Translations under genes and position numbers: made by a program
Notes under the pieces: model-generated
The model's database searches: none
Told to the model about the DNA's origin: nothing
The model's input: only the letters and a program-made list of their open reading frames with translations
In this document: positions 6,631 to 63,699 of the stretch, piece after piece
Position numbering within the stretch: position 1 is the stretch's first letter
How the letters are laid out: the number at the start of each line of letters is the position of its first letter
Source: a virus
Reading direction: 5' to 3' (one strand)
DNA: 64,000 nucleotides
Virus record (IMG/VR): IMGVR_UViG_3300049846_001037
Coordinates: 124,001-188,000 of that record

Positions 6631-7485
6631 CTAATCAATTAAATTTTTAACGTCTGGGCTACTAATCAATGTCTTGATTTTCTTTTCAAATTCCGTATTT
6701 GTTATCCTTATCCTTTTGATAATTTCTCTCTTGCTCATCCCTTCCACCATTAACTGTAAAATTATAAAAGCTGTCTTGTCTATTTTCGAACTTTTTTTAT
6801 CGACTTTTTGTTTCAGGTTGTCGAAGTCCATCTTGAAGAATATTTCGTCGTTGCTTGGAGGTGCCGCAATAGCGTTGACAAGAGAAACCTCGCCTCCATC
6901 TGTTTGAATTGGTTGATCCAAAGATATCGTGTGGGTGCCACGCTGCTCAAGAACTCCCATTGCGTATTTGCAGAGAGTAAACTGCTTCTTCTTTCCAGCG
7001 TCAAATCCCTTGCTGACTTCTTTGGTCTTGTATGCTACGTGATGAGGGCAACCCTGACAGGTGCTTTTGTTGATGACCTTCTTTGTTAGCGGGCATTTGT
7101 GTTTGCCAAGCATGAGATAGAATGCATTGTTGATTCTATCCATTGCGTAATTAAAGCTAACGTAGTTGTCATTCTCAATGTTGCGTGAATATTTTTTGGT
7201 CTTGTATTGATACCTTAACTGAGCCAGTTTGCGATGCCATACTGTGTATACGTATGTAGAGAAGTTTATGTTGAGCGTGTCATCGTAATTATCTAGAGCA
7301 TCAACTAACTTCATGCGGCAAATCTGAGCCAAGTCATCAATATCATGATTGGGTATCTTTCCTACCCAATGAGAAACCATGACCTTTATCTTGCGGTCAA
7401 ATAATCCAAGGATGTGATCGAACCCATCGCCAGTTTTTGTATTGTATTTGACTACGCCATCTTTAAACTTGATGTTCTTGATCAC
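6631..7485 (-). CDS. Phage sigma-like factor with a zinc-finger insertion
   Basis: Likely directs RNA polymerase to phage promoters. Residues about 45-100 read like sigma region 2: DIDDLAQICRMKLVDALDNY, then NFSTYVYTVWHRKLAQLRY. A Cys cluster follows (CPLTK...CQGCPHH...C, about 135-170), which looks like a zinc-binding insertion absent from standard sigma factors. Then comes SLDQPIQTDGGEVSLVNAI, resembling the sigma region-3 linker, and a C-terminal helix-turn-helix-like segment (GMSKREIIKRIRITNTEFEK). It is shorter than primary sigma factors. The class-two promoters found across the window are natural candidates for its targets; that link is inference. Confidence 0.72.
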   Translation of the reverse strand: MIKNIKFKDGVVKYNTKTGDGFDHILGLFDRKIKVMVSHWVGKIPNHDIDDLAQICRMKLVDALDNYDDTLNINFSTYVYTVWHRKLAQLRYQYKTKKYSRNIENDNYVSFNYAMDRINNAFYLMLGKHKCPLTKKVINKSTCQGCPHHVAYKTKEVSKGFDAGKKKQFTLCKYAMGVLEQRGTHTISLDQPIQTDGGEVSLVNAIAAPPSNDEIFFKMDFDNLKQKVDKKSSKIDKTAFIILQLMVEGMSKREIIKRIRITNTEFEKKIKTLISSPDVKNLID

Positions 7486-7508: not shown

Positions 7509-8333
7509 TTATCCAAAAATGTTCTCGTCCATTCCACGCTGCTTGTAGCAGGTGTCCTTAAAGTCACAACACCAGCAAAAATCATTGTCAGTCGGAGTCC
7601 AGTCCTTTTCTTCTTTGTCTGTCTTTATCTTGCTCCTTATTTCCTGACCTATTGCCCTGATCCTGTCGAGGATTTCTTTGTCCTCATCATTGTTGTGCTT
7701 TTGTCCAGCAGGATCCGGTGGGCTTGTCTTGCCTATCTTCAAGAAGTCTAGTTGCTTGAAAATCTCAACGTCTTCTTTGTCGAGCGTCTTCTTGAATCCG
7801 ATGGCGTAGATGTTTAGCTGGTCGTTCTTGTCTATGGGATAAGCCGCTTTAGATGTCTTGTAGTCAACAATCTTGAATGTGTTCTCGCTGATCCTGTCGA
7901 TGCGGTCAATGTAGCCCTTGAGCCATAGTCCGTCACCAAGGTCTATCTCAAAGTACTTTTCCGTGTGGTAGACATCTGGTTCGTTCTTGTCTATCTTGTC
8001 GTAGTATCGCTTGAGCAACTTCTTCGACTCTTCAATCTGCTTGTCGGTGATCGCAAACTGCTTGCCGTTGTTGGTGAGGCGATAGGTCTTTCTCAGCGCA
8101 GAATAAAAGGCTCTCTTCATGAGAGCCTTCTTATCGTAATCACGGGACTTCTTTTTGAAATAGATGATGTAGTTGTGGAACTTCTCCAAAACCAAATGGT
8201 TGAAGTTTCCAAACGCAAGCCATGGCCAATGTTTCGTGGGTAGCTTGGCTATGTAGCGATAGTAGTACTTTCGTTGACAGGTTTTGAATGACTCAATTGC
8301 TGAAAACGATAGGAAGAATTTGTCTTGTGACAT
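7509..8333 (-). CDS. PD-(D/E)XK nuclease, RecB/Cas4-like, with probable iron-sulfur cysteines
   Basis: The N-terminal SFSAIESFKTCQRKYYYRY is the usual opening of RecB/AddB/Cas4-family nucleases, including the first Cys. The core GYIDRID...FKIVDYKTSK gives the D...(D/E)xK metal site. The C-terminal CWCCDFKDTC supplies three or more further Cys, so a 4Fe-4S cluster like those of Cas4 and AddB is likely. At 274 aa it is a stand-alone nuclease domain without helicase. No cas genes or CRISPR arrays are nearby, so a role in phage DNA recombination or end processing is more likely. Confidence 0.82.
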   Translation of the reverse strand: MSQDKFFLSFSAIESFKTCQRKYYYRYIAKLPTKHWPWLAFGNFNHLVLEKFHNYIIYFKKKSRDYDKKALMKRAFYSALRKTYRLTNNGKQFAITDKQIEESKKLLKRYYDKIDKNEPDVYHTEKYFEIDLGDGLWLKGYIDRIDRISENTFKIVDYKTSKAAYPIDKNDQLNIYAIGFKKTLDKEDVEIFKQLDFLKIGKTSPPDPAGQKHNNDEDKEILDRIRAIGQEIRSKIKTDKEEKDWTPTDNDFCWCCDFKDTCYKQRGMDENIFG

Positions 8334-12352: not shown

Positions 12353-12555
12353 TAGCAAGTCACCCAAACATTGCCAGGACTGACGAAGCTCGTAGCACCG
12401 CCAGATCCAAGTCCCTGATTTTGCTTTAACGTCTGTTCTTTGACCACAAGATTCATGTGTTCTCTTATGATCTCCAAGCCCTTTTCGTCAATGCTTTTAG
12501 GGTCATTGATTTCCATATAACCCTGTAGCCAGTATGCAAAGTCACGGTAAGTCAT
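12352..12555 (-). CDS. Small conserved protein, tandem paralogue 2, 67 aa
   Basis: Opens MTYRDFAYWLQGYMEINDPK, then a helix-rich segment and a Gly/Ser tail ending WVTC. It shares its N-terminal half with the downstream gene, a clear recent tandem duplication, and the three genes are coupled by TAATG-type junctions. Confidence 0.8.
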   Translation of the reverse strand: MTYRDFAYWLQGYMEINDPKSIDEKGLEIIREHMNLVVKEQTLKQNQGLGSGGATSFVSPGNVWVTC

Positions 12556-26896: not shown

Positions 26897-27442
26897 TTAT
26901 ATTAGTTCTAGCTGTGATATTGAGAGAACAATGCTGTTGATGTCACCGCTAAAGAACGATGAGCATATCTTGACCTTGGTCTCTCTATTTGTTGCCTTGT
27001 GTATTTCTTGAACGATACCCTCAAAGCCAGAGAATGGACCATCAGTTACCTTGACCCGATCCTCTATCTTGATGTTCTCGTTGTTTTCCTCTGCTCTATC
27101 ATCGTGGCTGGAAATTTCCTGTAACACTACCATCATCTCTTCATCGGGGACGTGAGCATACACTCTGCGTTTCTCTTTGACATCAGCCATATTCAAAATG
27201 CCTGGTATCAGAGATACAGTAGAGAAGACAGTTTCCTTGTCCATGTCTTCACATGCGATGAATACGTATCCAGGATATAGCTTCTCAGCGTAGTTGTAGA
27301 GCTTATCCTTGTAGAACCTACTCTTCTGAGATATGGGAACGATGACCTTCTTTCTTACTTCCCGTAACGTCTCAGTAGTCTCTATCGTATTCTTGATCTT
27401 CTGTTCAAACCCGCTTGTAATGTTTACAACATACCAATTCAA
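26897..27442 (-). CDS. nusG: NusG-like transcription elongation factor
   Basis: 181 aa. The NGN domain begins MNWYVVNITSGFEQKIKNTI and contains KLYPGYVFIAC, the usual NGN core; the C-terminal KOW domain has DRVKVTDGPFSGFEGIVQEI. It would bind RNA polymerase and alter pausing, termination or coupling to translation. Phage NusG copies are uncommon; with the sigma-like factor it suggests that the phage reshapes host RNA polymerase. Confidence 0.88.
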   Translation of the reverse strand: MNWYVVNITSGFEQKIKNTIETTETLREVRKKVIVPISQKSRFYKDKLYNYAEKLYPGYVFIACEDMDKETVFSTVSLIPGILNMADVKEKRRVYAHVPDEEMMVVLQEISSHDDRAEENNENIKIEDRVKVTDGPFSGFEGIVQEIHKATNRETKVKICSSFFSGDINSIVLSISQLELI

Positions 27443-55383: not shown

Positions 55384-55699
55384 GATAAATATCACTTGTT
55401 AGGTCGATTCTGTGGCGCAAAACCTGGAAAAAATAAAAATAGGGATTTGACTTTTTCGGGGGCTTTCGGAAAAAACTTTTTTAGCGATTTGGATAACCGC
55501 TGAGAGTACATACTCTGACACACTTTTTGACCCCCACCCCCTACTTTTTTGGGGCTTTTTTCCCCTTATATTTCAATGATTTTTGCCTCTTTTTGATGAA
55601 AATCCTTGTGTTTCAAGGCTTTTATAGCCCCCAATAGGGGTAGGAGGGGTGGGGAGGATGTCCCAGCAGGTAAGGGAAAGCCTGCAGATGTCATCCCTC

Positions 55700-55715
55700 T
55701 ACTTAAATTTAAGTA
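55700..55715. repeat. Palindrome copy 1 (TACTTAAATTTAAGTA)
   Basis: Perfect 16-bp palindrome; one of seven in the right 8 kb. No consensus promoter lies within 50 bases, unlike the other copies. Confidence 0.8.
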
Positions 55716-55762
55716 AGCAGATGACCGGTCGCAGCAGATCCTCTGGATGTTCTCCCGTAAAG

Positions 55763-55793
55763 ACAAAGACCCCGCCGAGGTTGGCAGGGTCTC
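55763..55793 (-). terminator. Terminator after 55820-56158
   Basis: Stem AGACCCTGCC/GGCGGGGTCT, then TTTGTCTTT on the minus strand. Confidence 0.78.
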
Positions 55794-55819
55794 TGTGGGT
55801 GGGACGAGGTGGGGTGGTT

Positions 55820-56158
55820 CTACTTGGTGAGGTATCCATGCTTGGGGAGGTCGGTGGGGAGAGGCATGGAGAGCAGGGCAGAGATGGAAGGAACCTTCAT
55901 CTTGCAGGGAGAGTGGGCGAGGTAGTCATACTTCTTGAACGCCAGTTCCTTGCCGTGGTGAGGGCAGTCCACGTAGTCGAAAGTGTAACCCTTCTTCTTG
56001 AGTTCGGCATGGAACAGGTCGAAGTCCTTCTTCGCTTGCTTGATGGCGGGGTCGCTGGGGTTCTGCTTGATGAGTTCATTGATTTCGTCCATTGCCATTG
56101 CGATAGCATGGGCAGACATCTTGGAAGCGATTGCCTTCTTCTCTTTGATGGTCAGCAT
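55820..56158 (-). CDS. Hypothetical protein, 112 aa
   Basis: Helical first 55 residues (MLTIKEKKAIASKM...), then KGYTFDYVDCPHHGKELAF with Cys and two His, and a second Cys in HSPCKM, a likely metal site. Not recognised. It has its own promoter (56186-56214) and terminator, a one-gene unit. Confidence 0.72.
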   Translation of the reverse strand: MLTIKEKKAIASKMSAHAIAMAMDEINELIKQNPSDPAIKQAKKDFDLFHAELKKKGYTFDYVDCPHHGKELAFKKYDYLAHSPCKMKVPSISALLSMPLPTDLPKHGYLTK

Positions 56159-56185
56159 GGTTTGTCTCCGAGAAGTGATATCTTT

Positions 56186-56214
56186 AATGTAACTTAGATG
56201 AGGGTTCTTGTCAA
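56186..56214 (-). promoter_or_regulatory. Sigma-70-type promoter of 55820-56158
   Basis: Minus strand: TTGACA, 17 bases, TACATT. The TTGACA overlaps the stop codon of the upstream gene; no palindrome here. Confidence 0.75.
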
Positions 56215-56435
56215 GGCATATTTAGGTCTTTGAACAGGAAGTCTTTGGGGAGTTTCCTGCCGCCGAGGTGGTCGTAGATGATGAGGCAAGGCAGGGACAT
56301 GATGCCAGGCACGACGAAGGAGTTGATGAGGAGGGTCATGGGCATGGAGAAGTGAAGATGCTGGTAGCAGATGTTCCCCACAGCGAACCAGATGAGGAAG
56401 AGGACCATGAGGAAGATGCGTTGTTTGTTGTTCAT
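56211..56435 (-). CDS. Membrane protein, 74 aa
   Basis: Start chosen at MNNKQRIFLM (56435), with AGGAG upstream; the longer frame runs through the promoter. Two membrane helices (about 6-25 and 33-58), basic end. Function unknown. Confidence 0.72.
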   Translation of the reverse strand: MNNKQRIFLMVLFLIWFAVGNICYQHLHFSMPMTLLINSFVVPGIMSLPCLIIYDHLGGRKLPKDFLFKDLNMP

Positions 56436-56460
56436 GGTATTACTCCTGAGTGATGAGTAA

Positions 56461-56489
56461 AGTATAACAATAAAGATAGCACATGTCAA
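56461..56489 (-). promoter_or_regulatory. Sigma-70-type promoter of 56211-56435
   Basis: Minus strand: TTGACA, 17 bases, TATACT. Confidence 0.85.
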
Positions 56490-56493
56490 GGGG

Positions 56494-56544
56494 TTATCTG
56501 CCGTTGACATCGGTCCAGTAGTCATCATCGCAACGCTCGTCCAT
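56494..56544 (-). CDS. Possible 16-aa acidic peptide
   Basis: Reads MDERCDDDYWTDVNGR. The ATG follows the upstream stop by one base (TAACATG), like other coupled genes here. Too short to be sure. Confidence 0.35.
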   Translation of the reverse strand: MDERCDDDYWTDVNGR

Positions 56545-56545
56545 G

Positions 56546-56752
56546 TTATTTCCCCCTCTTGTTGGCTTCATTGCGGAGTTTGGTCATGACTTCGAGGGCA
56601 CGGGCAAGGATGGCGGCTTCGCTCTGATGACCCAGCATGAAGACACCCAGCGAATGAACAGCATCCAACATCTCGTCATTGGGAATGGTGGGAATGCTTT
56701 GTTCCAGTTCCGCCAGCATCGCCATCTTCTCGTTGTAGACTTGGGTATCCAT
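56546..56752 (-). CDS. Small helical protein, 68 aa
   Basis: Two or three helices; MAMLAELEQSIPTIPNDEML, then AAILARALEVMTKLRNEANK. Mildly charged. Function unknown. Directly downstream of promoter 56779-56807. Confidence 0.72.
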   Translation of the reverse strand: MDTQVYNEKMAMLAELEQSIPTIPNDEMLDAVHSLGVFMLGHQSEAAILARALEVMTKLRNEANKRGK

Positions 56753-56778
56753 TGGGTTTCTCCTTAGTTGATAAAGTA

Positions 56779-56807
56779 ATTATACTAATAAAGATAGCAC
56801 ATGTCAA
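56779..56807 (-). promoter_or_regulatory. Sigma-70-type promoter of 56546-56752
   Basis: Minus strand: TTGACA, 17 bases, TATAAT (full consensus). Shares TGTGCTATCTTTATT spacer with the promoter at 56461-56489. Confidence 0.9.
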
Positions 56808-56844
56808 GGGGGAGATGTTCGCCCGCTGCGAGGGAGGGGCGTTG

Positions 56845-56862
56845 TTACTTAAAGATAAGTAA
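56845..56862. repeat. Palindrome copy 2 (TTACTTAAAGATAAGTAA)
   Basis: Same arms with a changed centre (AAGA). Lies 37 bases before the TTGACA. Confidence 0.8.
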
Positions 56863-56906
56863 GGAGTGCAGGGCTGCAGGATCTGGCTGCGATGAGGTTG
56901 GCACAG

Positions 56907-56936
56907 CAAAAGACCTTCCGTGTTAGGGAAGGTCTT
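56907..56936 (-). terminator. Terminator after 56923-57102
   Basis: Stem AGACCTTCCC/GGAAGGTCT-type, then TTTTGC on the minus strand; the gene's stop codon lies inside the stem. Confidence 0.82.
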
Positions 56937-57102
56937 TGCGGGTCTTCTCTTTCTCTACCCTCTTGAGTATTTTGAGGGCGACTTGTTCTGCTTCTTCCAG
57001 CGTCATCAGAACCTTTTTCCTTACGTCATTCTTTTCTATCAGGCAGACATAAGGTTGTCGTAGACGTGGAAAGCGTATTTCTACTGTTTGTTTCTTTGGC
57101 AT
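56923..57102 (-). CDS. Small basic protein, 59 aa
   Basis: Start chosen at MPKKQTVEIR (57102), 7 bases after the upstream stop; the longer frame overlaps the upstream gene almost fully. Beta hairpin then a Lys/Glu-rich helix. Function unknown. Confidence 0.66.
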   Translation of the reverse strand: MPKKQTVEIRFPRLRQPYVCLIEKNDVRKKVLMTLEEAEQVALKILKRVEKEKTRKDLP

Positions 57103-57109
57103 GGTGTCA

Positions 57110-57418
57110 TCAGAGTGGGATGGAGAGTTCGTGGATGAGGACTTCGGTTCCGCTTTGGAGGAGGATGATATCTTCGTCGGTTCCTCCTCTTGCCACCTTG
57201 TCCCAGCGAGAGCAGGTGCCGTGGTCGGGGTCATGCCAGTAGACCACATCGCCACGCTTTACCCTGTCTGTGGATTTGAGGCGGCGTTTGGGGCATTTGG
57301 AGCAGGGACCATCTTCGCCCAGTTCGGACTGCTTGACTTTGTTGCCACAGAGCGAGCAGTATTCTTCGCCCTGAGGGTCATAGTTCCGTTTGTGGGGTTG
57401 CTTCTTGTCGGAGTTCAT
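57110..57418 (-). CDS. Zinc-finger protein, 102 aa
   Basis: Start chosen at MNSDKKQPHK (57418). CSLC (about 21-24) and CSKC (about 39-42) form a zinc ribbon; the C-terminal half is an alpha/beta domain with VVYWHDPDHG. Function unknown. It is coupled with the ADP-ribosyltransferase-like gene (7 bases apart). Confidence 0.7.
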   Translation of the reverse strand: MNSDKKQPHKRNYDPQGEEYCSLCGNKVKQSELGEDGPCSKCPKRRLKSTDRVKRGDVVYWHDPDHGTCSRWDKVARGGTDEDIILLQSGTEVLIHELSIPL

Positions 57419-57425
57419 GTCTGCC

Positions 57426-58055
57426 TCAGAGGACGATGACTTCTTTCTCGTTGCGACCACCGAGGTAAGCGAAGACTTTGCTCTTATCAATCTTGATGGT
57501 CTTCACTTTGCCCTGTTTGCCAAAGCGATTAGCGAACCAAGTTGCTTTGGTCTTAGAGAGCGAGTAAGACATTCCGTTAGGGGATTTGTCGTAGCCCCGA
57601 TGGATGGTGAGGAAGTCAGGGAGATTGGCGAGTTCAAGGCGGTCCTCATCGCTCATAAAGTATTCTTTGTTGGGGACTTGAGCCGTGAGGAGTTTCTTCC
57701 AGTCCTTGATGTTCTGCCAGATGTTCTCCGAGTCAATCCAGATGGAGCCGAGCAGACCCCAATAAGTCTTAGGCTCAGTAATGCGGTTGCGGATTTTGTT
57801 GAAAGCCCACAGACGATACGGACGCTCATGCCAGAAGACATAGGCATGGAAATCTCCTTCGGCAAGGCATTTGTCACACGCTTCCTGCTTCTGCTTCAAC
57901 TGCTCGTTGTAGAGGGCGTTATGCTGAGGGGTGTAGAAGATTTCCTGCACCAAAGGATGCTGAATCGCCTGCCCGAAAGGTCCGTCCATCAGACAGACGT
58001 AGAGTTCGGGGGCGAGTTCTTCTTTACGGGCGAGGACTTCCTGAAAGTTAATCAT
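57426..58055 (-). CDS. Putative ADP-ribosyltransferase (R-S-E type)
   Basis: 209 aa. The three marks of arginine-type ADP-ribosyltransferases are in order: Arg in FLTIHRGYD (Arg153), Ser-x-Ser in GMSYSLSKTKATWFA (163-167), and Glu-x-Glu in RNEKEVIVL (Glu203, Glu205), where NAD would bind. The N-terminal 100 residues are helical with Cys60/Cys63. T4 Alt and ModA alter host RNA polymerase in this way, so a host-takeover role is likely but not shown. It has the first promoter in a two- or three-gene unit, with a module palindrome upstream. Confidence 0.7.
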   Translation of the reverse strand: MINFQEVLARKEELAPELYVCLMDGPFGQAIQHPLVQEIFYTPQHNALYNEQLKQKQEACDKCLAEGDFHAYVFWHERPYRLWAFNKIRNRITEPKTYWGLLGSIWIDSENIWQNIKDWKKLLTAQVPNKEYFMSDEDRLELANLPDFLTIHRGYDKSPNGMSYSLSKTKATWFANRFGKQGKVKTIKIDKSKVFAYLGGRNEKEVIVL

Positions 58056-58061
58056 GTAGTA

Positions 58062-58090
58062 AGTATAACCTATTAAGCATAGCTTGTCAA
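58062..58090 (-). promoter_or_regulatory. Sigma-70-type promoter of the ADP-ribosyltransferase unit
   Basis: Minus strand: TTGACA, 17 bases, TATACT; 7 bases separate the TATACT from the ATG at 58055, leaving almost no leader. Confidence 0.88.
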
Positions 58091-58137
58091 GACGTGGGGC
58101 AAATAGACATGAGTGGCTGGTGATCCCTGGGAGCTAG

Positions 58138-58155
58138 TTACTTACATTTAAGTAG
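58138..58155. repeat. Palindrome copy 3 (TTACTTACATTTAAGTAG)
   Basis: Lies 47 bases before the TTGACA, exactly as copy 7 does. Confidence 0.82.
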
Positions 58156-58202
58156 GAAGAGGAGGTGGCTGCAGATCCGGTCATCTGGGTGGTTGGCACA
58201 AG

Positions 58203-58235
58203 CAAAAGGGACTCCGATGTTTTGGAGTCCCTTTG
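58203..58235 (-). terminator. Terminator after 58240-58662
   Basis: Stem AAAGGGACTCC/GGAGTCCCTTT with TTTTGC after it on the minus strand. Confidence 0.88.
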
Positions 58236-58239
58236 GGTC

Positions 58240-58662
58240 TTAGTAGATTTCGAGTTCGTCTAGTTCTTGGGAAGTTGGGGTGGAGAATTCCTTGAGGGAG
58301 TAGCGTCTTCCTGAGTCTCTGGGCGGGTTCATGCCGCTTGTTTCTTGGACTCGGTTCCATGTGGCTATGAGTTGTTCGCCGTAGGGGCGGGACTCCACAA
58401 GGACTTTGAAAGTATTACCTTCGGAGGATTGAACAGTCATGGTCTGGAGGGTAGCGACAATGTATCCGCCTTCCCAGTTCCATGAATGATTCTTTGCTTT
58501 GGTCATCACTCTGCCCTTGCAGTCGAAGGAGTCGCCCTTGAAGAAGACGACGGCACCATGACGGGCTTTGATGCGTCGGACTTCGGTTGGTGTAACTTCC
58601 CTGTGTTTGCCTTGAGGGGGCAAAGGAAGTTCGAGGCAGTCGGGGTGGATGTTGAGTCCCAT
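58240..58662 (-). CDS. Hypothetical protein, 140 aa
   Basis: Start chosen at MGLNIHPDCL (58662) with AGGAG upstream. Beta-rich, with EVTPTEVRRIKARHGAVVFFKGD and a Trp-containing middle. Acidic end. Not recognised. Confidence 0.7.
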   Translation of the reverse strand: MGLNIHPDCLELPLPPQGKHREVTPTEVRRIKARHGAVVFFKGDSFDCKGRVMTKAKNHSWNWEGGYIVATLQTMTVQSSEGNTFKVLVESRPYGEQLIATWNRVQETSGMNPPRDSGRRYSLKEFSTPTSQELDELEIY

Positions 58663-58693
58663 GACTATTTTCTCCTGCGGCGGCGATAAATCA

Positions 58694-59026
58694 TTAGCAA
58701 AACTCCCCATCGAGGAAGAAGTTGCCTGATTGGTCGTTCCACTCATTCTCCCGTGATGCCCTCTGGAATTTGGCACCAATCTGTTTCCTGTCCCTGATGA
58801 GTTTGAGCAGGTCTACTGGGGTGGAGACATCCGAGCCATTGTCGTTGGTGAGAGTATAACCTTCTTTTGCCAGCCGCTCAACACGGGCGTACCACGAGCG
58901 GACATCCACAACGCCGTTAGCCTTGTCGCCACGGAAGGTGAATTGCCAGCCTGCTGATGACTTGCCCAGATGAACGGGCTCACCAGAGACGAAGACTTCG
59001 GGAGTCATGTAGAAGTTCGTGCCCAT
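58694..59026 (-). CDS. Conserved small phage protein (MGTNFY-HLGKSSAGW type), 110 aa
   Basis: The MGTNFYMTPE opening and HLGKSSAGWQFTFRGD match a family common in phages and of unknown function. The usual zinc cysteines of that family are missing here (MTPEVFVSGEP instead), so it is a metal-free variant. Soluble. Confidence 0.76.
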   Translation of the reverse strand: MGTNFYMTPEVFVSGEPVHLGKSSAGWQFTFRGDKANGVVDVRSWYARVERLAKEGYTLTNDNGSDVSTPVDLLKLIRDRKQIGAKFQRASRENEWNDQSGNFFLDGEFC

Positions 59027-59028
59027 GT

Positions 59029-59298
59029 TCAGCCCTGAAAAGAGATGCCTTCGGGGTGGCTGTAGAGCGTTTCGCTCATCCAGCGTCCCATTCCCTTATA
59101 CCGCTTGTCTTCGTCATCGACAAGGGCAAAAGAGGTCAGGACGTAGGACCACTTGTTGTTCATGAGGTTGCGGCTCTGCTCGTTCCACTTGGCGATGAGG
59201 GCTTCGCCAACCTTCTGGGAGACGACGAGGATCTGCTCGTTGAAGGTCTCGTTGGTCGGGGTGTGGGTGTTGGTGTAGTTCATCAGGAGCATCTGCAT
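59029..59298 (-). CDS. Hypothetical protein, 89 aa
   Basis: Not recognised. Thr/Asn-rich N-terminus, then FNEQILVVSQKVGEALIAKWN and a Trp/Tyr-rich end. The phrase GEALIAKWN recurs, as GEQLIATWN, in the gene product of 58240-58662, so the two may be related. Coupled to the gene at 58694. Confidence 0.7.
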   Translation of the reverse strand: MQMLLMNYTNTHTPTNETFNEQILVVSQKVGEALIAKWNEQSRNLMNNKWSYVLTSFALVDDEDKRYKGMGRWMSETLYSHPEGISFQG

Positions 59299-59301
59299 GG
59301 C

Positions 59302-59469
59302 TTAGTCCTCCTCTTCCGCTTCGATGTCCACTTCGGGGTCTTCGAGCGTCAGATTGTTCTTGTTGACCTTCATCTTCTCCCACTTCTTCATGGCGTCCTT
59401 CTCGTTCTTGGCGGTGACGGTCACTTGTTCGGTGGCGAGGTAACGGACGGTGAGGTTGAAGGTCTTCAT
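59302..59469 (-). CDS. Small acidic-tailed protein, 55 aa
   Basis: Read directly from the DNA. Opens MKTFNLTVRYLATEQVTVTA (beta hairpin), then a basic helix (EKDAMKKWEKMK) and an acidic tail. GGAG precedes. The first gene after the promoter at 59496-59524. Confidence 0.75.
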   Translation of the reverse strand: MKTFNLTVRYLATEQVTVTAKNEKDAMKKWEKMKVNKNNLTLEDPEVDIEAEEED

Positions 59470-59495
59470 GGCGGTTCTCCTTGAGTGATGACTAC

Positions 59496-59524
59496 ATCAT
59501 AGTCTAATAAAGCTAGCTTGTCAA
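59496..59524 (-). promoter_or_regulatory. Sigma-70-type promoter of the 58240-59469 unit
   Basis: Minus strand: TTGACA, 17 bases, TATGAT; spacer AGCTAGCTTTATTAGAC. Confidence 0.85.
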
Positions 59525-59560
59525 GACCGAGGTGAGCTGCGAGGGATCCCCGTGAGCTGT

Positions 59561-59578
59561 TTACTTAAAGATAAGTAA
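59561..59578. repeat. Palindrome copy 4 (TTACTTAAAGATAAGTAA)
   Basis: Identical to copy 2. Lies 36 bases before the TTGACA. Confidence 0.82.
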
Positions 59579-59616
59579 GAAGATGTCCGGTCATCAGAAG
59601 TTGGTTGGTGGCACAA

Positions 59617-59648
59617 GCAAAAGCCCCGCCGTGTTAGGGCAGGGCTTT
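59617..59648 (-). terminator. Terminator after 59667-59906
   Basis: Stem AAGCCCTGCC/GGCGGGGCTT, then TTTTGC on the minus strand. Confidence 0.86.
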
Positions 59649-59666
59649 GCTTGGGATTACTGGGTT

Positions 59667-59906
59667 TTAGTAGGAGATGGACACATCGAAGTCGCCGTGT
59701 TCGTTGGTGGCTTCGAGGAGGGACTGGAGGGTTTCCTTGTCTTCGGGGTTGAGGTTGCGGAGGGTCTTGTTCAGTTCGTCCACTTTCTGCTTGGAGATGT
59801 AGTAGAGCCCGTTGTCGTTCATCGGGAAATGCTTCTCGATGAAGTCGGCGGAGGAGGAGCCGTTCAGCAGGCTGTGGTGTTCGATGCGATAGATGCTGAC
59901 GGACAT
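59667..59906 (-). CDS. Hypothetical protein, 79 aa
   Basis: Opens MSVSIYRIEHHSLLNG; then a helix-loop-helix with NPEDKETLQSLLEATNE. Soluble, not recognised. Last gene of the three-gene unit 59667-60623. Confidence 0.72.
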   Translation of the reverse strand: MSVSIYRIEHHSLLNGSSSADFIEKHFPMNDNGLYYISKQKVDELNKTLRNLNPEDKETLQSLLEATNEHGDFDVSISY

Positions 59907-59916
59907 GGCGTTCTCC

Positions 59917-60441
59917 TTATCGGTGAATGTTCATGGGAAGATTCTTCTTCAAGCGTTCATTGACCACCGCCGTCAAGAACACTTTCCCGAACCCTGACTT
60001 CGGGACCACCTTTTGTATCAGTTTCTTTTCTCCTTGCATGGTGATGAAGGTATCCACCTTGAAGTGTTCTTCCATTTTAGCCTTTGAGCCGTAGACTTCT
60101 ACCACAGCCCCTTGCAGAACCTTGGTCAGTTCCTCATGCTTCTCATTGATAATATCACATTCCCTCTTATTAGGGAAGTTCTTCATGGGGAAGGAGATGC
60201 TATATTCTCCTTCGACAGAGTTAACACCGCCAAAGAGGCGAAGGGACTTGCGGAAGATGAAGTCATCCAGTTTAGCCAGTTTGGATTCCAGCAGGTTGAT
60301 GCCGTAGATGACGTAGGCGTTGGCGATGGGCAACACGATGGAAAGCACCGCCGCCAGAGCCAAGCCCGAAGCCATCGCCGTCTTACCCATAGCAAGGGCG
60401 GCAAGGCAGAGGAACGAGAAGAAGATGAAGGGGCTTCTCAT
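59917..60441 (-). CDS. Membrane-anchored protein, 174 aa
   Basis: Two membrane helices at about residues 3-20 and 25-48, then a 125-residue soluble domain with CDIINEKHEELTKVL. The CDIIxxxxEE phrase recurs in the next gene (CDIIIRILGE), so the two may be related. Function unknown. Confidence 0.72.
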   Translation of the reverse strand: MRSPFIFFSFLCLAALAMGKTAMASGLALAAVLSIVLPIANAYVIYGINLLESKLAKLDDFIFRKSLRLFGGVNSVEGEYSISFPMKNFPNKRECDIINEKHEELTKVLQGAVVEVYGSKAKMEEHFKVDTFITMQGEKKLIQKVVPKSGFGKVFLTAVVNERLKKNLPMNIHR

Positions 60442-60623
60442 GGCTTCACCTCATTGAAGGGAATGATTTCTGCCTTGATGTTCATTTCACCCAGTATTCT
60501 GATGATAATATCACATTCACTTTTTGGCAACGGGTTGATATCTTCAATAATAGTGCTAGGCTCCCCATCGAAGTCGTGGTAAGCAAAGGTGCCATCTTCG
60601 AGAGTGTAGCGTATCTGGAACAT
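60438..60623 (-). CDS. Small protein, 61 aa
   Basis: Beta-rich first half (MFQIRYTLEDGTFAYHDFD), then a helix with PKSECDIIIRILGE. Function unknown. First gene after the promoter at 60647-60675. Confidence 0.74.
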   Translation of the reverse strand: MFQIRYTLEDGTFAYHDFDGEPSTIIEDINPLPKSECDIIIRILGEMNIKAEIIPFNEVKP

Positions 60624-60646
60624 GGAGTTCTCCTTGAGTTAATGTA

Positions 60647-60675
60647 ATTATATAAAATTAAAGATAGCTTGTCAA
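60647..60675 (-). promoter_or_regulatory. Sigma-70-type promoter of the 59667-60623 unit
   Basis: Minus strand: TTGACA, 17 bases, TATAAT (full consensus). Confidence 0.9.
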
Positions 60676-60719
60676 TGGGGTTGGAGCAGGTGAGCTGGCT
60701 GGTGATCATGGGGAGCTGT

Positions 60720-60737
60720 TTACTTACATTTAAGTAG
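60720..60737. repeat. Palindrome copy 5 (TTACTTACATTTAAGTAG)
   Basis: Identical to copy 3. Lies 44 bases before the TTGACA. Confidence 0.82.
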
Positions 60738-60780
60738 GGAGGGAGCCCGCTGCAGATCTGCGAGTGGGTCGTCGTGAAAA

Positions 60781-60812
60781 GCAAAAGCCCCTCTAGAGTT
60801 CAGAGGGGCTTC
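60781..60812 (-). terminator. Terminator after 60835-61365
   Basis: Stem AAGCCCCTCT/AGAGGGGCTT, then TTTTGC on the minus strand. Confidence 0.88.
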
Positions 60813-60834
60813 GGCGTTTAAGGCTGGAGATGGT

Positions 60835-61365
60835 TTATTGCATGGAGGCGAAGGACTTCTGGAGGGCGAGTTTGAAGCATCGGCATTGTTCGGGGTCGAG
60901 GGAGAAGGCGAAATTGAGGCTGGGGTCTTCGAGGGCTATGCGGTTCTTCTCGGCGGCTGGCTTATCGCCAATGGTTGAGTAGTTGCTGTTCTCGTCCACG
61001 CACCACCAGAAGGTTTCGGGGTCGCTGGACTGGAAGGAACTCTCGTCCACGATGTCGCCCAGACGAATCCATTCCTTGAGGCGACGGGCACCGTTCTTGC
61101 CTTCGAGGTAAGCCCTGATGGCTTCGACGGCTTCGCCCTGTTCGTTGTGGTCAGCGAGAACATGGATGGTGAAGTCATGCTTCTTGCTGTTGCGGAACTT
61201 GAAGGAAGTCTGGACCAGATTCTTCTGAGCCAACTTCCTGATGGACTTGGGGATGGCTCCGAACTCGAACTCGGCAGAGCCCATGTAGTCGAGGCTCATG
61301 TAGTCGGAGACCTTCTCACCTGCGTAGAACGTGACCTTGGGTTTGCATCGCTGGACGAGCCACAT
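60835..61365 (-). CDS. Conserved phage protein (DYMGSAEFEFGAIPKS type), 176 aa
   Basis: The segment SLDYMGSAEFEFGAIPKSIR (about residues 24-43) is the mark of a family found in many podophage and other phage early regions, function unknown. The rest is soluble alpha/beta with several Trp. GGAG before the ATG. Confidence 0.78.
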   Translation of the reverse strand: MWLVQRCKPKVTFYAGEKVSDYMSLDYMGSAEFEFGAIPKSIRKLAQKNLVQTSFKFRNSKKHDFTIHVLADHNEQGEAVEAIRAYLEGKNGARRLKEWIRLGDIVDESSFQSSDPETFWWCVDENSNYSTIGDKPAAEKNRIALEDPSLNFAFSLDPEQCRCFKLALQKSFASMQ

Positions 61366-61368
61366 GGT

Positions 61369-61689
61369 CTACTCCTTTCCTTCGAGGATGATGTCTCCAG
61401 CCTTAGGCTTGCCGAAGTTTTGCTTCATCGGCTTGCCCATGTTGCCACCGACACGGACGAAGATATCGTGGTCGGCATGATGGACTTCAATGACTGTGGC
61501 GGCATTGGTGTGGATACCGCCGTTCTTGCTGTGAGCCGCAACATCTCCCTGCCCATAGCGGAAATGGTCAGAGTGTTGGTAGGCGGCAACGTGTTGGATA
61601 GCGTCAGCCAGCTTCTTGCCGAACTCAGGGTCGTTCTTGATGGCATCGAGGGCATCCACCATCACAACCAACGTGGCATTGTATCCCAT
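61369..61689 (-). CDS. Hypothetical protein, 106 aa
   Basis: Soluble, His-rich middle (HVAAYQHSDHFRYGQGDVAAHS). Pattern VVMVDALDAIKNDPEFGKKLADAI is a beta-alpha start. Not recognised. First gene of a two-gene unit. Confidence 0.74.
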   Translation of the reverse strand: MGYNATLVVMVDALDAIKNDPEFGKKLADAIQHVAAYQHSDHFRYGQGDVAAHSKNGGIHTNAATVIEVHHADHDIFVRVGGNMGKPMKQNFGKPKAGDIILEGKE

Positions 61690-61716
61690 GACGTGTCTCC
61701 TTTGAGTGATGGAGTA

Positions 61717-61745
61717 AGTATAACTAATTGGCCGATGCTTGTCAA
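61717..61745 (-). promoter_or_regulatory. Sigma-70-type promoter of the 60835-61689 unit
   Basis: Minus strand: TTGACA, 17 bases, TATACT. Confidence 0.88.
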
Positions 61746-61789
61746 CGCATCTCCGCCTGCGAGCTGCTGGGGATCACCGGCTGCAGTGC

Positions 61790-61807
61790 TTACTTAAATT
61801 TAAGTAG
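61790..61807. repeat. Palindrome copy 6 (TTACTTAAATTTAAGTAG)
   Basis: Lies 44 bases before the TTGACA, as copy 5 does. Confidence 0.82.
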
Positions 61808-61849
61808 GCGGCCGTCTTCCTCGCAGCGGGCTGGGACATCTCGGCGCAG

Positions 61850-61882
61850 CAAAAAGCCCACACCTGCTGGGGTATGGGCTTG
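61850..61882 (-). terminator. Terminator after 61906-62187
   Basis: Stem AAGCCCATACC/GGTGTGGGCTT-like, then TTTTTGC on the minus strand. Confidence 0.84.
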
Positions 61883-61905
61883 CGGCAACAGACTGCTGGA
61901 GATGA

Positions 61906-62187
61906 TTACTTCTTCAACGCCTTGTCAATCATCTCTTGGACTTCTTTGACTATTTTATCTTTGGCTGTCTTCTCAATGGTGGCTCGGAACATGGGACGAA
62001 GGGACTCACGCTCGTAGTCGCTCACCTTTAAGCCTGCGAGGATTTCGTCTTCCACTTTGCGTAGCGTAGGAATCATCTGTTCAAAGGTCTTGAGCATCTG
62101 AACACGCAGAAACTCATTGACCTGCTCAATTTGTTTATGAACAGATTCTTGTTCCATCTCTTTTAGTGTGTTGAGTAGGTCAGCCAT
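61906..62187 (-). CDS. Coiled-coil protein, 93 aa
   Basis: Nearly all helical, heptad-like: MADLLNTLKEMEQESVHKQI, then FEQMIPTLRKVEDEIL and a Lys-rich end. Likely forms an oligomer. Function unknown. Overlaps the upstream 58-aa gene by 8 bases. Confidence 0.75.
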   Translation of the reverse strand: MADLLNTLKEMEQESVHKQIEQVNEFLRVQMLKTFEQMIPTLRKVEDEILAGLKVSDYERESLRPMFRATIEKTAKDKIVKEVQEMIDKALKK

Positions 62188-62356
62188 TGGGCACCTTCAT
62201 TGAAGCAAGACAATCTTTGCAGGTGACTTTCTTCCAGTCAAAGGAAGATTGGGGGTCATCGTATTTCATGCCATCGTAGTCGCAGAGGATGTAGGATTCA
62301 TCTTCTCCACTTGATTGGGAGCAGGTCTCTCCAGCGGCGGCATGCACGACCTTCAT
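62180..62356 (-). CDS. Small Cys-containing protein, 58 aa
   Basis: Read directly from the DNA. Opens MKVVHAAAGETCSQSSGEDE; Cys at 12 and 25, then CKDC at 46-49, a probable zinc site. Its ATG overlaps the upstream stop by 4 bases and its stop overlaps the next ATG by 8. Function unknown. Confidence 0.74.
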   Translation of the reverse strand: MKVVHAAAGETCSQSSGEDESYILCDYDGMKYDDPQSSFDWKKVTCKDCLASMKVPNG

Positions 62357-62712
62357 GGCTTCTGCTCCTTGTAGTTCACCATCTCTGCGATCTTTTTCAG
62401 GAGCTCATAGTTGTCCTGAACGCCCACCACATTACCGAGGTAGTGAGCGTTAGCCTTGACCCACGCCTTGCGTTCCACTTCTTCCATTGAGAAGCAGACC
62501 CCACGCAGAGTTCCTTCACGCAGTTCCTTCTTGGAAATCTTGATGGGGTTGCGCCAGTCCTTGCCCACAATCCAAGACTGGGTGGTTTCCCCGTCAATGG
62601 TGTGAGGACGCCAATGTTCCTTCCAGATGGGTCCGCCAGTTGAGCGACCCTGAGCATCTTTGGCGTAGACTCTGTGGTTGTCTTCGAAGATGTAGATGGT
62701 TGAGCCGATCAT
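62353..62712 (-). CDS. Hypothetical protein, 119 aa
   Basis: Beta-rich first half (IYIFEDNHRVYAKDAQGRST), Trp-rich, then a helix ending LLKKIAEMVNYKEQ. Soluble. Not recognised. Confidence 0.74.
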   Translation of the reverse strand: MIGSTIYIFEDNHRVYAKDAQGRSTGGPIWKEHWRPHTIDGETTQSWIVGKDWRNPIKISKKELREGTLRGVCFSMEEVERKAWVKANAHYLGNVVGVQDNYELLKKIAEMVNYKEQKP

Positions 62713-62828
62713 TTTTGACTCCTGAGATATTCCTGATGCATCTTGCGAATGTGTTTGGTGTTTTGGCGTTTAGTATACAGCCCAGAAGCCACAAGGAAAA
62801 GGATGAAGACCAGCCATGTGATATCCAT
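62709..62828 (-). CDS. Small membrane peptide, 39 aa
   Basis: Start chosen at MDITWLVFILF (62828); a longer frame would run through the tRNA-like RNA. One membrane helix (about 3-19) and a basic tail. Such peptides can sit in the inner membrane; function unknown. Confidence 0.66.
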   Translation of the reverse strand: MDITWLVFILFLVASGLYTKRQNTKHIRKMHQEYLRSQK

Positions 62829-62884
62829 TACTTGGCTCCTTTGAATTTCTTCTTGGCTTTCTTGTATTTGCGTAGGCGGCTCAT
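62828..62884 (-). CDS. Tiny basic peptide, 18 aa
   Basis: Reads MSRLRKYKKAKKKFKGAK, 11 of 18 residues basic. Stop and next start overlap (TAATG), and a purine-rich AGGA lies before the ATG. It could be a leader peptide or an RNA-binding peptide; short length keeps it uncertain. Confidence 0.5.
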   Translation of the reverse strand: MSRLRKYKKAKKKFKGAK

Positions 62885-62904
62885 GACACATCCTATAAGG
62901 GGGC

Positions 62905-63005
62905 GGTGAGAGACCGAACCCACTTTTAATGGCAGAGGGGCGGATTCGAACCGCTCTCCCTATCTCTAGGGCGACTTTCCATCGTCCATCTCTGGGGCTC
63001 TCACC
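62905..63005 (-). ncRNA. tRNA-Ser-like leader RNA
   Basis: Directly after the TATACT of promoter 63013-63041 the minus strand reads GGTGAGAG, then a possible anticodon loop ATGGAAA (GGA, serine), a long variable-arm hairpin CCCTAGAGATAGGG, and GCGGTTCGAATCCGC, a normal T arm. One 3' side, CTCTGCCA at 62930-62937, pairs with the 5' end only imperfectly. Further on, CTCTCACC (62905-62912) pairs perfectly with GGTGAGAG. No normal D arm is seen. It is either a broken or odd tRNA, or a tRNA-like leader of the operon. Confidence 0.5.
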
Positions 63006-63012
63006 TGTCATC

Positions 63013-63041
63013 AGTATAACTTTCTGGGAGACCCTTGTCAA
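63013..63041 (-). promoter_or_regulatory. Sigma-70-type promoter of the tRNA-like RNA and its operon
   Basis: Minus strand: TTGACA, 17 bases, TATACT; expected start within about 8 bases of the GGTGAGAG. Confidence 0.88.
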
Positions 63042-63088
63042 TGACGCCAGCAGCTCTGGGGACGCCGCTGCTGATCCCCGGGAGCTGG

Positions 63089-63106
63089 TTACTTAAATTT
63101 AAGTAA
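63089..63106. repeat. Palindrome copy 7 (TTACTTAAATTTAAGTAA)
   Basis: Perfect 18-bp palindrome, 47 bases before the TTGACA. Confidence 0.85.
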
Positions 63107-63142
63107 GCCAGGACATCACGGGCTGCGGCGGAGATGTGGCGC

Positions 63143-63190
63143 AAAAATAAGCCCCCTTATTTTATATAAAACTATTAGATTATAAGGGGG
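63143..63190 (-). terminator. Likely terminator upstream of the last module
   Basis: Arms CCCCCTTAT (63152-63160) and ATAAGGGGG (63182-63190) with a 21-base A/T-rich loop, then CTTATTTTTG on the minus strand. It also lies just before the start of the plus-strand HNH gene. Confidence 0.6.
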
Positions 63191-63195
63191 TTCAC

Positions 63196-63699
63196 ATGGA
63201 AACTAAAAAGTGTTCTAAATGCCATATAACAAAGTCTATTGATAACTTTTACGCTTCACACGTTGACAGAACATGTATTGATTGCCACAGAAAAAGGAAC
63301 AAGGAATACAAGAAATTACACCCAGAGATAATTAGGGCTCAAAAGCAAAGATATAAAGAAAGGGGCAAGGGGGCAAAGGCATACGCCAGATCGATGAGTA
63401 AACTAGAGTTCAGGTTTAGAAGGTGGGAAATAAATGCCAAGAAAAGAGGAATAGTATGGGACTTAACATTCGATGATATTAAAGATATGCCTATGACATG
63501 TTTTTACAGTGAAATGGAACTTACTCTAAAACCAAATCAATTAAATACAATCTCTCTAGATAGAAAAAACAGTGATTTAGGCTATACAAAAACCAACGTT
63601 GTATTCGCCTCTGCAAAAATCAACAGAATGAAAAGCGACATGAGCATTAACGATTTTTTAATGCTATGTAAACTTGTCACAAATAAATGCCCTGGCTGA
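63196..63699 (+). CDS. HNH-type homing endonuclease
   Basis: 167 aa, plus strand, against nearly all neighbours. Two N-terminal CxxC pairs (CSKC at 6-9, CIDC near 27-30), a basic middle, then the HNH-like end SLDRKNSDLGYTKTNVVFAS with a following Asn and Lys. More A/T-rich than the flanking genes, which suggests recent arrival. No intron or intein is evident, so it is probably free-standing. Its stop codon lies inside a hairpin (63689-63718). Confidence 0.82.
   Translation: METKKCSKCHITKSIDNFYASHVDRTCIDCHRKRNKEYKKLHPEIIRAQKQRYKERGKGAKAYARSMSKLEFRFRRWEINAKKRGIVWDLTFDDIKDMPMTCFYSEMELTLKPNQLNTISLDRKNSDLGYTKTNVVFASAKINRMKSDMSINDFLMLCKLVTNKCPG

Follow-up and report, generated by a model that had tools for sequence, protein, structure and literature searches.

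The right end of a virus genome carries a dispersed array of an 18-bp palindrome, YTACTTA-N4-TAAGTAR, set between the terminator of one transcription unit and, as a rule, the promoter of the next. The genome is the 205,426-bp record IMGVR_UViG_3300049846_001037, and the window, the whole stretch of 64,000 nucleotides that was analysed, covers its bases 124001-188000, window position 1 being genome position 124001. The number, conservation, location, order and spacing of the sites are direct observations. On balance, we predict that the palindrome is the operator of an early regulon.

The initial annotation of the window had listed seven copies, and all seven are present with 0 to 2 mismatches to the 18-mer given there, for which 0.01 matches per window are expected by chance at up to 3 mismatches. 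Six of its start positions were exact, and the first copy starts at 55699 instead of 55700. The copies are the following, listed without strand:

55699..55716, palindrome copy 1, CTACTTAAATTTAAGTAA on the plus strand; marks the left edge of the array and has no promoter within 300 bp
56845..56862, palindrome copy 2, TTACTTAAAGATAAGTAA
58138..58155, palindrome copy 3, TTACTTACATTTAAGTAG
59561..59578, palindrome copy 4, TTACTTAAAGATAAGTAA
60720..60737, palindrome copy 5, TTACTTACATTTAAGTAG
61790..61807, palindrome copy 6, TTACTTAAATTTAAGTAG
63089..63106, palindrome copy 7, TTACTTAAATTTAAGTAA
Genome 189447, 192140, 195084, 196333, 200470 and 203426, six copies to the right of the window, from a search of the whole record

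All 13 copies lie within genome 179,699-203,443, in the last 26 kb of the record. The first 179 kb contains none, and allowing up to 2 arm mismatches in the whole-record search added none. The earlier remark that nothing similar occurs elsewhere in the window thus stands and also holds across the 179 kb that precede the array; the six further copies are all beyond the right edge of the window. A random scatter of the palindrome over the genome, which had been named in advance as the outcome that would speak against a regulatory role, was not found, all copies being confined to modules of the right end. In a scan made without prior assumption, TACTTA-N4-TAAGTA was the sole short inverted repeat to stand out genome-wide, and as a repeated element it is statistically beyond doubt.

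The palindrome has a fixed 7-4-7 structure. Its inner arms, TACTTA and TAAGTA, are identical in 26 of 26 half-sites, so that 12 arm positions are the same in all 13 copies, and the half-site centres are 10 bp apart. The outermost base (Y/R) is variable. Most copies have AATT as their 4-bp centre, the others AAGA, CATT or, in one case outside the window, AAAA; among the centres first reported (AAAT, ACAT and AAGA), only AAGA was recovered. The sequences flanking the palindrome have diverged beyond alignment across the modules.

Read in the sense of transcription, each module consists of an intrinsic terminator, a GC-rich spacer, the palindrome, a second GC-rich spacer, a promoter, a ribosome site and a start codon. 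This bears out, on the minus strand, the order that had been proposed (terminator, TTTTGC(T)TGTGCC-like stretch, GC-rich words, palindrome, TTGACA-17-TATAAT), the terminator often being followed by TTTTGCTTGTGCC or TTTCTTTGCGCC. A terminator precedes the palindrome in 13 of 13 copies, and a same-strand sigma70-like promoter follows it 25-70 bp downstream in 12. The module promoters are near-consensus sigma70 promoters, with TTGACA/G, a spacer of 16-18 bp (mostly 17) and a TATAAT-like box. In the window, the terminators, from a terminator scan unless otherwise indicated, and the promoters are as follows:

55760..55795, minus strand, intrinsic terminator, copy 1
56904..56940, minus strand, intrinsic terminator, copy 2
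58200..58236, minus strand, intrinsic terminator, copy 3
59615..59651, minus strand, intrinsic terminator, copy 4
60779..60815, minus strand, intrinsic terminator, copy 5
61848..61883, minus strand, intrinsic terminator, copy 6
63143..63192, minus strand, terminator-like hairpin with a long AT-rich loop, copy 7; read from the sequence, not called by the scan; abuts a plus-strand open reading frame (ORF) at 63196-63699
56779..56807, minus strand, sigma70 promoter of module 2, TTGACA-17-TATAAT
58062..58090, minus strand, sigma70 promoter of module 3, TTGACA-17-TATACT
59496..59524, minus strand, sigma70 promoter of module 4, TTGACA-17-TATGAT
60647..60675, minus strand, sigma70 promoter of module 5, TTGACA-17-TATAAT
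61717..61745, minus strand, sigma70 promoter of module 6, TTGACA-17-TATACT
63013..63041, minus strand, sigma70 promoter of module 7, TTGACA-17-TATACT

In 12 copies the palindrome lies 43-53 bp past the beginning of the terminator T-run (mean 47.5, standard deviation [SD] 3.4), and in the remaining one 150 bp past it; the gap between the palindrome and the -35 box averages 44 bp (SD 12.2; 12 modules). For modules 2 to 7 the latter gaps are 37, 47, 36, 44, 44 and 47 bp, falling in pairs as had been noticed initially. The total from terminator to promoter is 109-111 bp in several modules with the palindrome nearly midway, which suggests an ancestral cassette. Because the palindrome is found after terminators and is missing at promoters without a preceding terminator, it marks the borders of transcription units.

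The palindrome is unlikely to act at the RNA level. An RNA element was rejected because the inner arms are invariant rather than compensated, while the outermost pair varies regardless of pairing; moreover, folding of the modules revealed no conserved structure, the palindrome hairpin being the only feature common to the folds, and an Rfam search of the modules gave no match. Dimeric DNA-binding proteins need symmetric half-sites, and invariant 6-bp half-sites 10 bp apart fit this arrangement. The identity of the arms amid diverged flanks, together with the lack of an RNA fold, therefore points to a dimeric DNA-binding protein.

Taken modulo 10.5 bp, the distances from the palindrome to the -35 box span no more than half a helical turn (R 0.60, p about 0.01) in a test that was post hoc and used 12 distances sharing ancestry, the six outliers alone giving p 0.06. 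A scan of periods peaks at 10.5-11, and collapsing the modal group still leaves p at about 0.01. With the start site set 7 nucleotides past the -10 box, the palindrome centres are at -69.5/-72.5, -80.5/-81.5, -88.5 to -92.5, -102.5 and -114.5. Class I activators such as CRP work from sites in steps of approximately one helical turn, near those centres. The phasing and the proximity to class I steps hint that the bound protein touches RNA polymerase, which we regard as a lead only.

From this layout we infer that a protein binds and affects the promoters, in which direction it does so, and the timing class, as follows. The right 26 kb would be the early region, transcribed leftwards by the host sigma70 RNA polymerase as short units. 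A duplicated cassette would separate these units, in the order terminator of the prior unit, ~47 bp, 18-bp operator, ~45 bp, promoter of the next unit. A homodimeric DNA-binding protein, encoded by the phage or the host, would bind the operator and so join the units into one regulon. With its centre ~70-115 bp before the start site and facing much the same side of the helix in each module, the dimer might contact the C-terminal domain of the alpha subunit (alpha-CTD) or sigma. Rather than activation, we favour a model in which over-stabilisation of polymerase damps or shuts off the transcription of the early units together, because the promoters are already near consensus and the p4 protein of phage phi29 would offer a precedent. 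Acting from ~-70 to -80 via the alpha-CTD, p4 activates a weak promoter and represses a strong one.

In addition to the post hoc nature of the phasing test, several observations weigh against an early-regulon operator. The distance of the palindrome from the terminator is more uniform than that from the promoter (SD 3.4 versus 12.2 bp), copy 1 has a terminator and no near promoter, and further sigma70-like promoters in the region with no terminator before them (e.g., 180214, 180489, 189058, 192543, 194120 and 202225) have no palindrome. The early class of the region has promoter type as its sole ground. Neither IMG/VR nor GenBank phages nor GTDB genomes yielded a relative of the array. Lastly, no DNA-binding protein able to recognise the palindrome was identified among the early proteins, which are mostly orphans, and no helix-turn-helix, ribbon-helix-helix or ParB domain was among their listed matches. 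The palindrome is, moreover, associated with terminators at least as tightly as with promoters.

Such an association fits a terminator-linked insulator or roadblock, in which a protein bound to the palindrome would halt terminator readthrough and isolate the units, in the manner of mycobacteriophage stoperators, the promoter being incidental. All strong terminators of the right end but the last (205126) have a palindrome, and the evenness of the terminator spacing and the promoterless copy 1 give this explanation real weight, even if we consider it unlikely. However, none of the equally strong terminators outside the right end has a palindrome, the terminator-to-palindrome distances are not helically phased, even spacing is also expected if the modules descend from one cassette, and stoperators are asymmetric (PMC9283540), in contrast with the symmetric palindrome.

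Class I activation, whereby the bound protein would boost the early promoters via the alpha-CTD from CRP-like sites about one helical turn apart, appears somewhat less likely again. The inferred centres, at about -70/-72, -81, -89 to -92, -102 and -114, do step by roughly one turn, and the promoters have no UP element, since the sequence immediately before the -35 boxes is GC-rich; yet near-consensus promoters, mostly with 17-bp spacers, need little help, and the phasing is only suggestive. It is very improbable that the modules are recombination cassettes only, i.e., PeSL-like homologous patches for the shuffling of early genes whose palindrome is kept by recent duplication rather than by binding. 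The modules do have architecture, words and terminator parts in common, copies 2 and 4 having the same terminator loop and copies 3 and 5 both having GATCACCAGCCA, and the palindrome variants alternate in copies 2 to 5, which together suggest duplication. Recombination alone, however, would not keep 12 symmetric arm positions identical in 13 of 13 copies while the flanks became unalignable. Scarcely credible is a ParB- or KorB-like site for segregation, replication or packaging, with silencing of neighbouring promoters as a side effect at most: distributed palindromes upstream of promoters do resemble the OB sites of RK2 (PMC11790492), but here the sites are limited to the terminator-promoter modules of the early region, and no ParB family was among the Pfam families listed (the best 25 per group).

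PeSL cassettes were reportedly described by Arbiol et al. in 2010 and Comeau et al. in 2014. The summary in PMC4503421 presents the PeSLs of T4-type phages as a promoter plus a stem-loop. The modules resemble them in combining a terminator stem-loop with a strong sigma70-like early promoter, repeated in a variable region rich in orphans, and 12 of the 13 modules join the two in one intergenic cassette. They differ from PeSLs in that an invariant operator-like palindrome sits midway. The palindrome also resembles the SPBRE of SPbeta, likewise one short conserved element that recurs at many intergenic promoters within a single phage; sequence analysis had marked the SPBRE as a predicted regulator site 24 years before its binding by MrpR was demonstrated (PMC10516654). 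The SPBRE, however, measures 15 bp, belongs to a prophage and is recognised by a tyrosine-recombinase-like repressor, whereas the present palindrome has 18 bp and its phage shows no sign of lysogeny.

The L5-type operators and stoperators of mycobacteriophages and the start-associated sequences (SAS) and extended SAS (ESAS) of cluster K phages are similar too, in that more than 10 short repeats lie in short intergenic spaces and are tied to transcription units and their direction. Stoperators and SAS are asymmetric 13-bp sequences, however, and ESAS, which lie beside start codons, are inverted repeats of 17 bp whose spacer varies; an 18-bp palindrome is not an asymmetric 13-bp site oriented with transcription, as are those of the L5 type. 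In phiC31, ~18 conserved inverted repeats (CIRs) lie near early promoters and are bound by one repressor. The dispersion of the palindrome, with 13 copies, 12 of them near promoters, and none in the other 179 kb, is of the SPBRE and CIR kind, but phiC31 is a temperate and unrelated phage, and the likeness to CIRs is one of description. A further parallel in mechanism is KorB of RK2, whose palindromic OB sites are found either 4-10 bp ahead of promoters or at distances of 45 to >1000 bp, KorB acting from those 45 bp or more upstream (PMC11790492). No homologue of phi29 p4 or KorB was found in the phage. We place the array in none of these families and would describe the cassette as PeSL-like with an added operator, the latter being a dispersed site of the SPBRE type. 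Little is known of the ways in which large lytic phages whose early genes are orphans coordinate and shut off transcription by the host polymerase. One 18-bp site that marks the borders of early units offers bait for a regulator and makes the regulon testable in an unstudied phage lineage, and the terminator-operator-promoter cassette is a compact part.

Gene calls and profile searches identified a myovirus-like gene set (tail sheath, portal, terminase large subunit and DNA polymerase) together with GroEL, ribonucleotide reductase, a DnaB-like helicase and an SbcC-like protein. Nearly all genes are on the minus strand, and those of the early-type region are mostly orphans; their initial label of "takeover genes" is a guess. 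The phage also encodes sigma70-like proteins (genome 90759-91508 and 130631-131485) and a NusG-like protein, which makes a staged transcription programme likely. Those in the window are the following:

6631..7485, minus strand, sigma70-like factor; profile match to region 2, 3.5e-7
26897..27442 (genome 150897-151442), minus strand, NusG-like protein; NusG 1.9e-12, KOW

The terminase is ~30% identical to its nearest counterparts, from Bacillus and other phages, and megablast found no near relatives among GenBank phages. In IMG/VR, terminase relatives occur only on short contigs, at 81% identity on a 12-kb contig and 58% on contigs of 36-39 kb, and these contigs lack the palindrome. Reductase, ATPase and early-gene searches retrieved no close relative, and none carrying the early region was found in GenBank phages or IMG/VR. 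Extending the palindrome search yielded six more copies in the rest of the genome and no array in relatives or other viruses: exact-pattern scans of IMG/VR and GTDB genomes returned single copies only, in unrelated places, and the contexts that were read show no module. Early-gene searches did reveal one relative, at 35%, in an unrelated phage (IMG/VR 3300033463_000025, L082, 143,758 bp), which has an intergenic module of its own. There, AATATTAAAAA lies at a fixed distance upstream of TTGACA-TATAAT in seven copies, several of them after terminators and some with a related repeat further upstream. Repeated elements upstream of early promoters may be a wider phage habit. The L082 module copies are:

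647-725
2371-2449
4168-4246
4851-4929
6134-6212
8151-8229
12372-12450

Two small basic proteins of the early region are candidates for the regulator:

Genome ~192260-192460 (L060 6261-6461), minus strand, 66 residues; last gene before a terminator-palindrome module
Genome 196557-196796 (L060 10558-10797), minus strand, ~80 residues; last gene before a terminator-palindrome module

They are alike (26% over 57 residues, single-comparison E 6e-5) and matched no family and no phage record. An AlphaFold model of one of them, made without an alignment, had a pLDDT of 54 and was unusable. A host-encoded binding protein is equally possible, and we know of no host factor that matches the TACTTA half-site. 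The common phage or host regulator suggested initially is partly supported: it fits the invariant half-sites, the phased promoter distances and the confinement of the copies to the early-type region, but no such regulator was identified.

The spacers of the modules are C-rich (on the transcribed-sense strand, 36-37% C and 25-27% G) and have words in common, confirming the GC-rich words first noticed. Within the last 25.8 kb, 16 of 17 occurrences of CTGCAG are inside modules, which make up 6% of that length (P ~4e-19), and GATC (15 of 49) and GCAGC (25 of 53) are likewise enriched there. Genome-wide avoidance or excess of CTGCAG was rejected, as 79 occurrences were found versus 82 expected and the concentration is found only in the right-end modules. 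The words have no fixed position, except for GATC, which by eye lies 12-17 bp past the palindrome in ~8 modules. A DNA methylase encoded by the phage (N6_N4_Mtase, 2.2e-40) is possibly linked to the CTGCAG and GATC words. A bolder proposal, to which we give little credence, is that a jumbo-class lytic phage, equipped with sigma-like and NusG-like proteins of its own, switches its whole early region, driven by the host polymerase, by one new operator midway between terminator and promoter. From that site a new type of regulator would contact RNA polymerase, closing near-consensus promoters and insulating units, with CTGCAG and GATC in the spacers serving methylation-dependent timing. Separately, CAGCTG is strongly under-represented across the record (6 versus 31 expected), possibly a trace of a host restriction system.

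Two features adjoin module 7. The ORF at window 63196-63699 is the only clear one on the plus strand in the early region. It has an AT-rich composition (35% GC) and abuts the module 7 terminator as if inserted; by eye it has the look of an HNH-type homing endonuclease, and it matched no Pfam family with confidence. Directly downstream of promoter 7, at window 62915-62985 on the minus strand, a tRNA-like stretch has a good T-arm (GCGGTTCGAATCCGC) and a 3' CTGCCA, with no ARAGORN call and no Rfam match. Further to the right, a PP-loop protein like TilS, the tRNA-Ile lysidine synthetase (ATP_bind_3, 7.3e-28; L060 16378-16998, minus strand, genome ~202.4 kb) is encoded near a tRNA with anticodon CAT (L060 18604-18680, minus strand, genome ~204.6 kb). 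This tRNA presumably resembles bacterial tRNA-Ile2, the substrate of TilS, and the phage may thus bring its own lysidine pair. Finally, the early gene at genome 190977-191324 (L060 4978-5325, minus strand) encodes a cyclic-phosphate processing receiver domain (cREC_REC, 2.1e-7), of a family linked to defence signalling.

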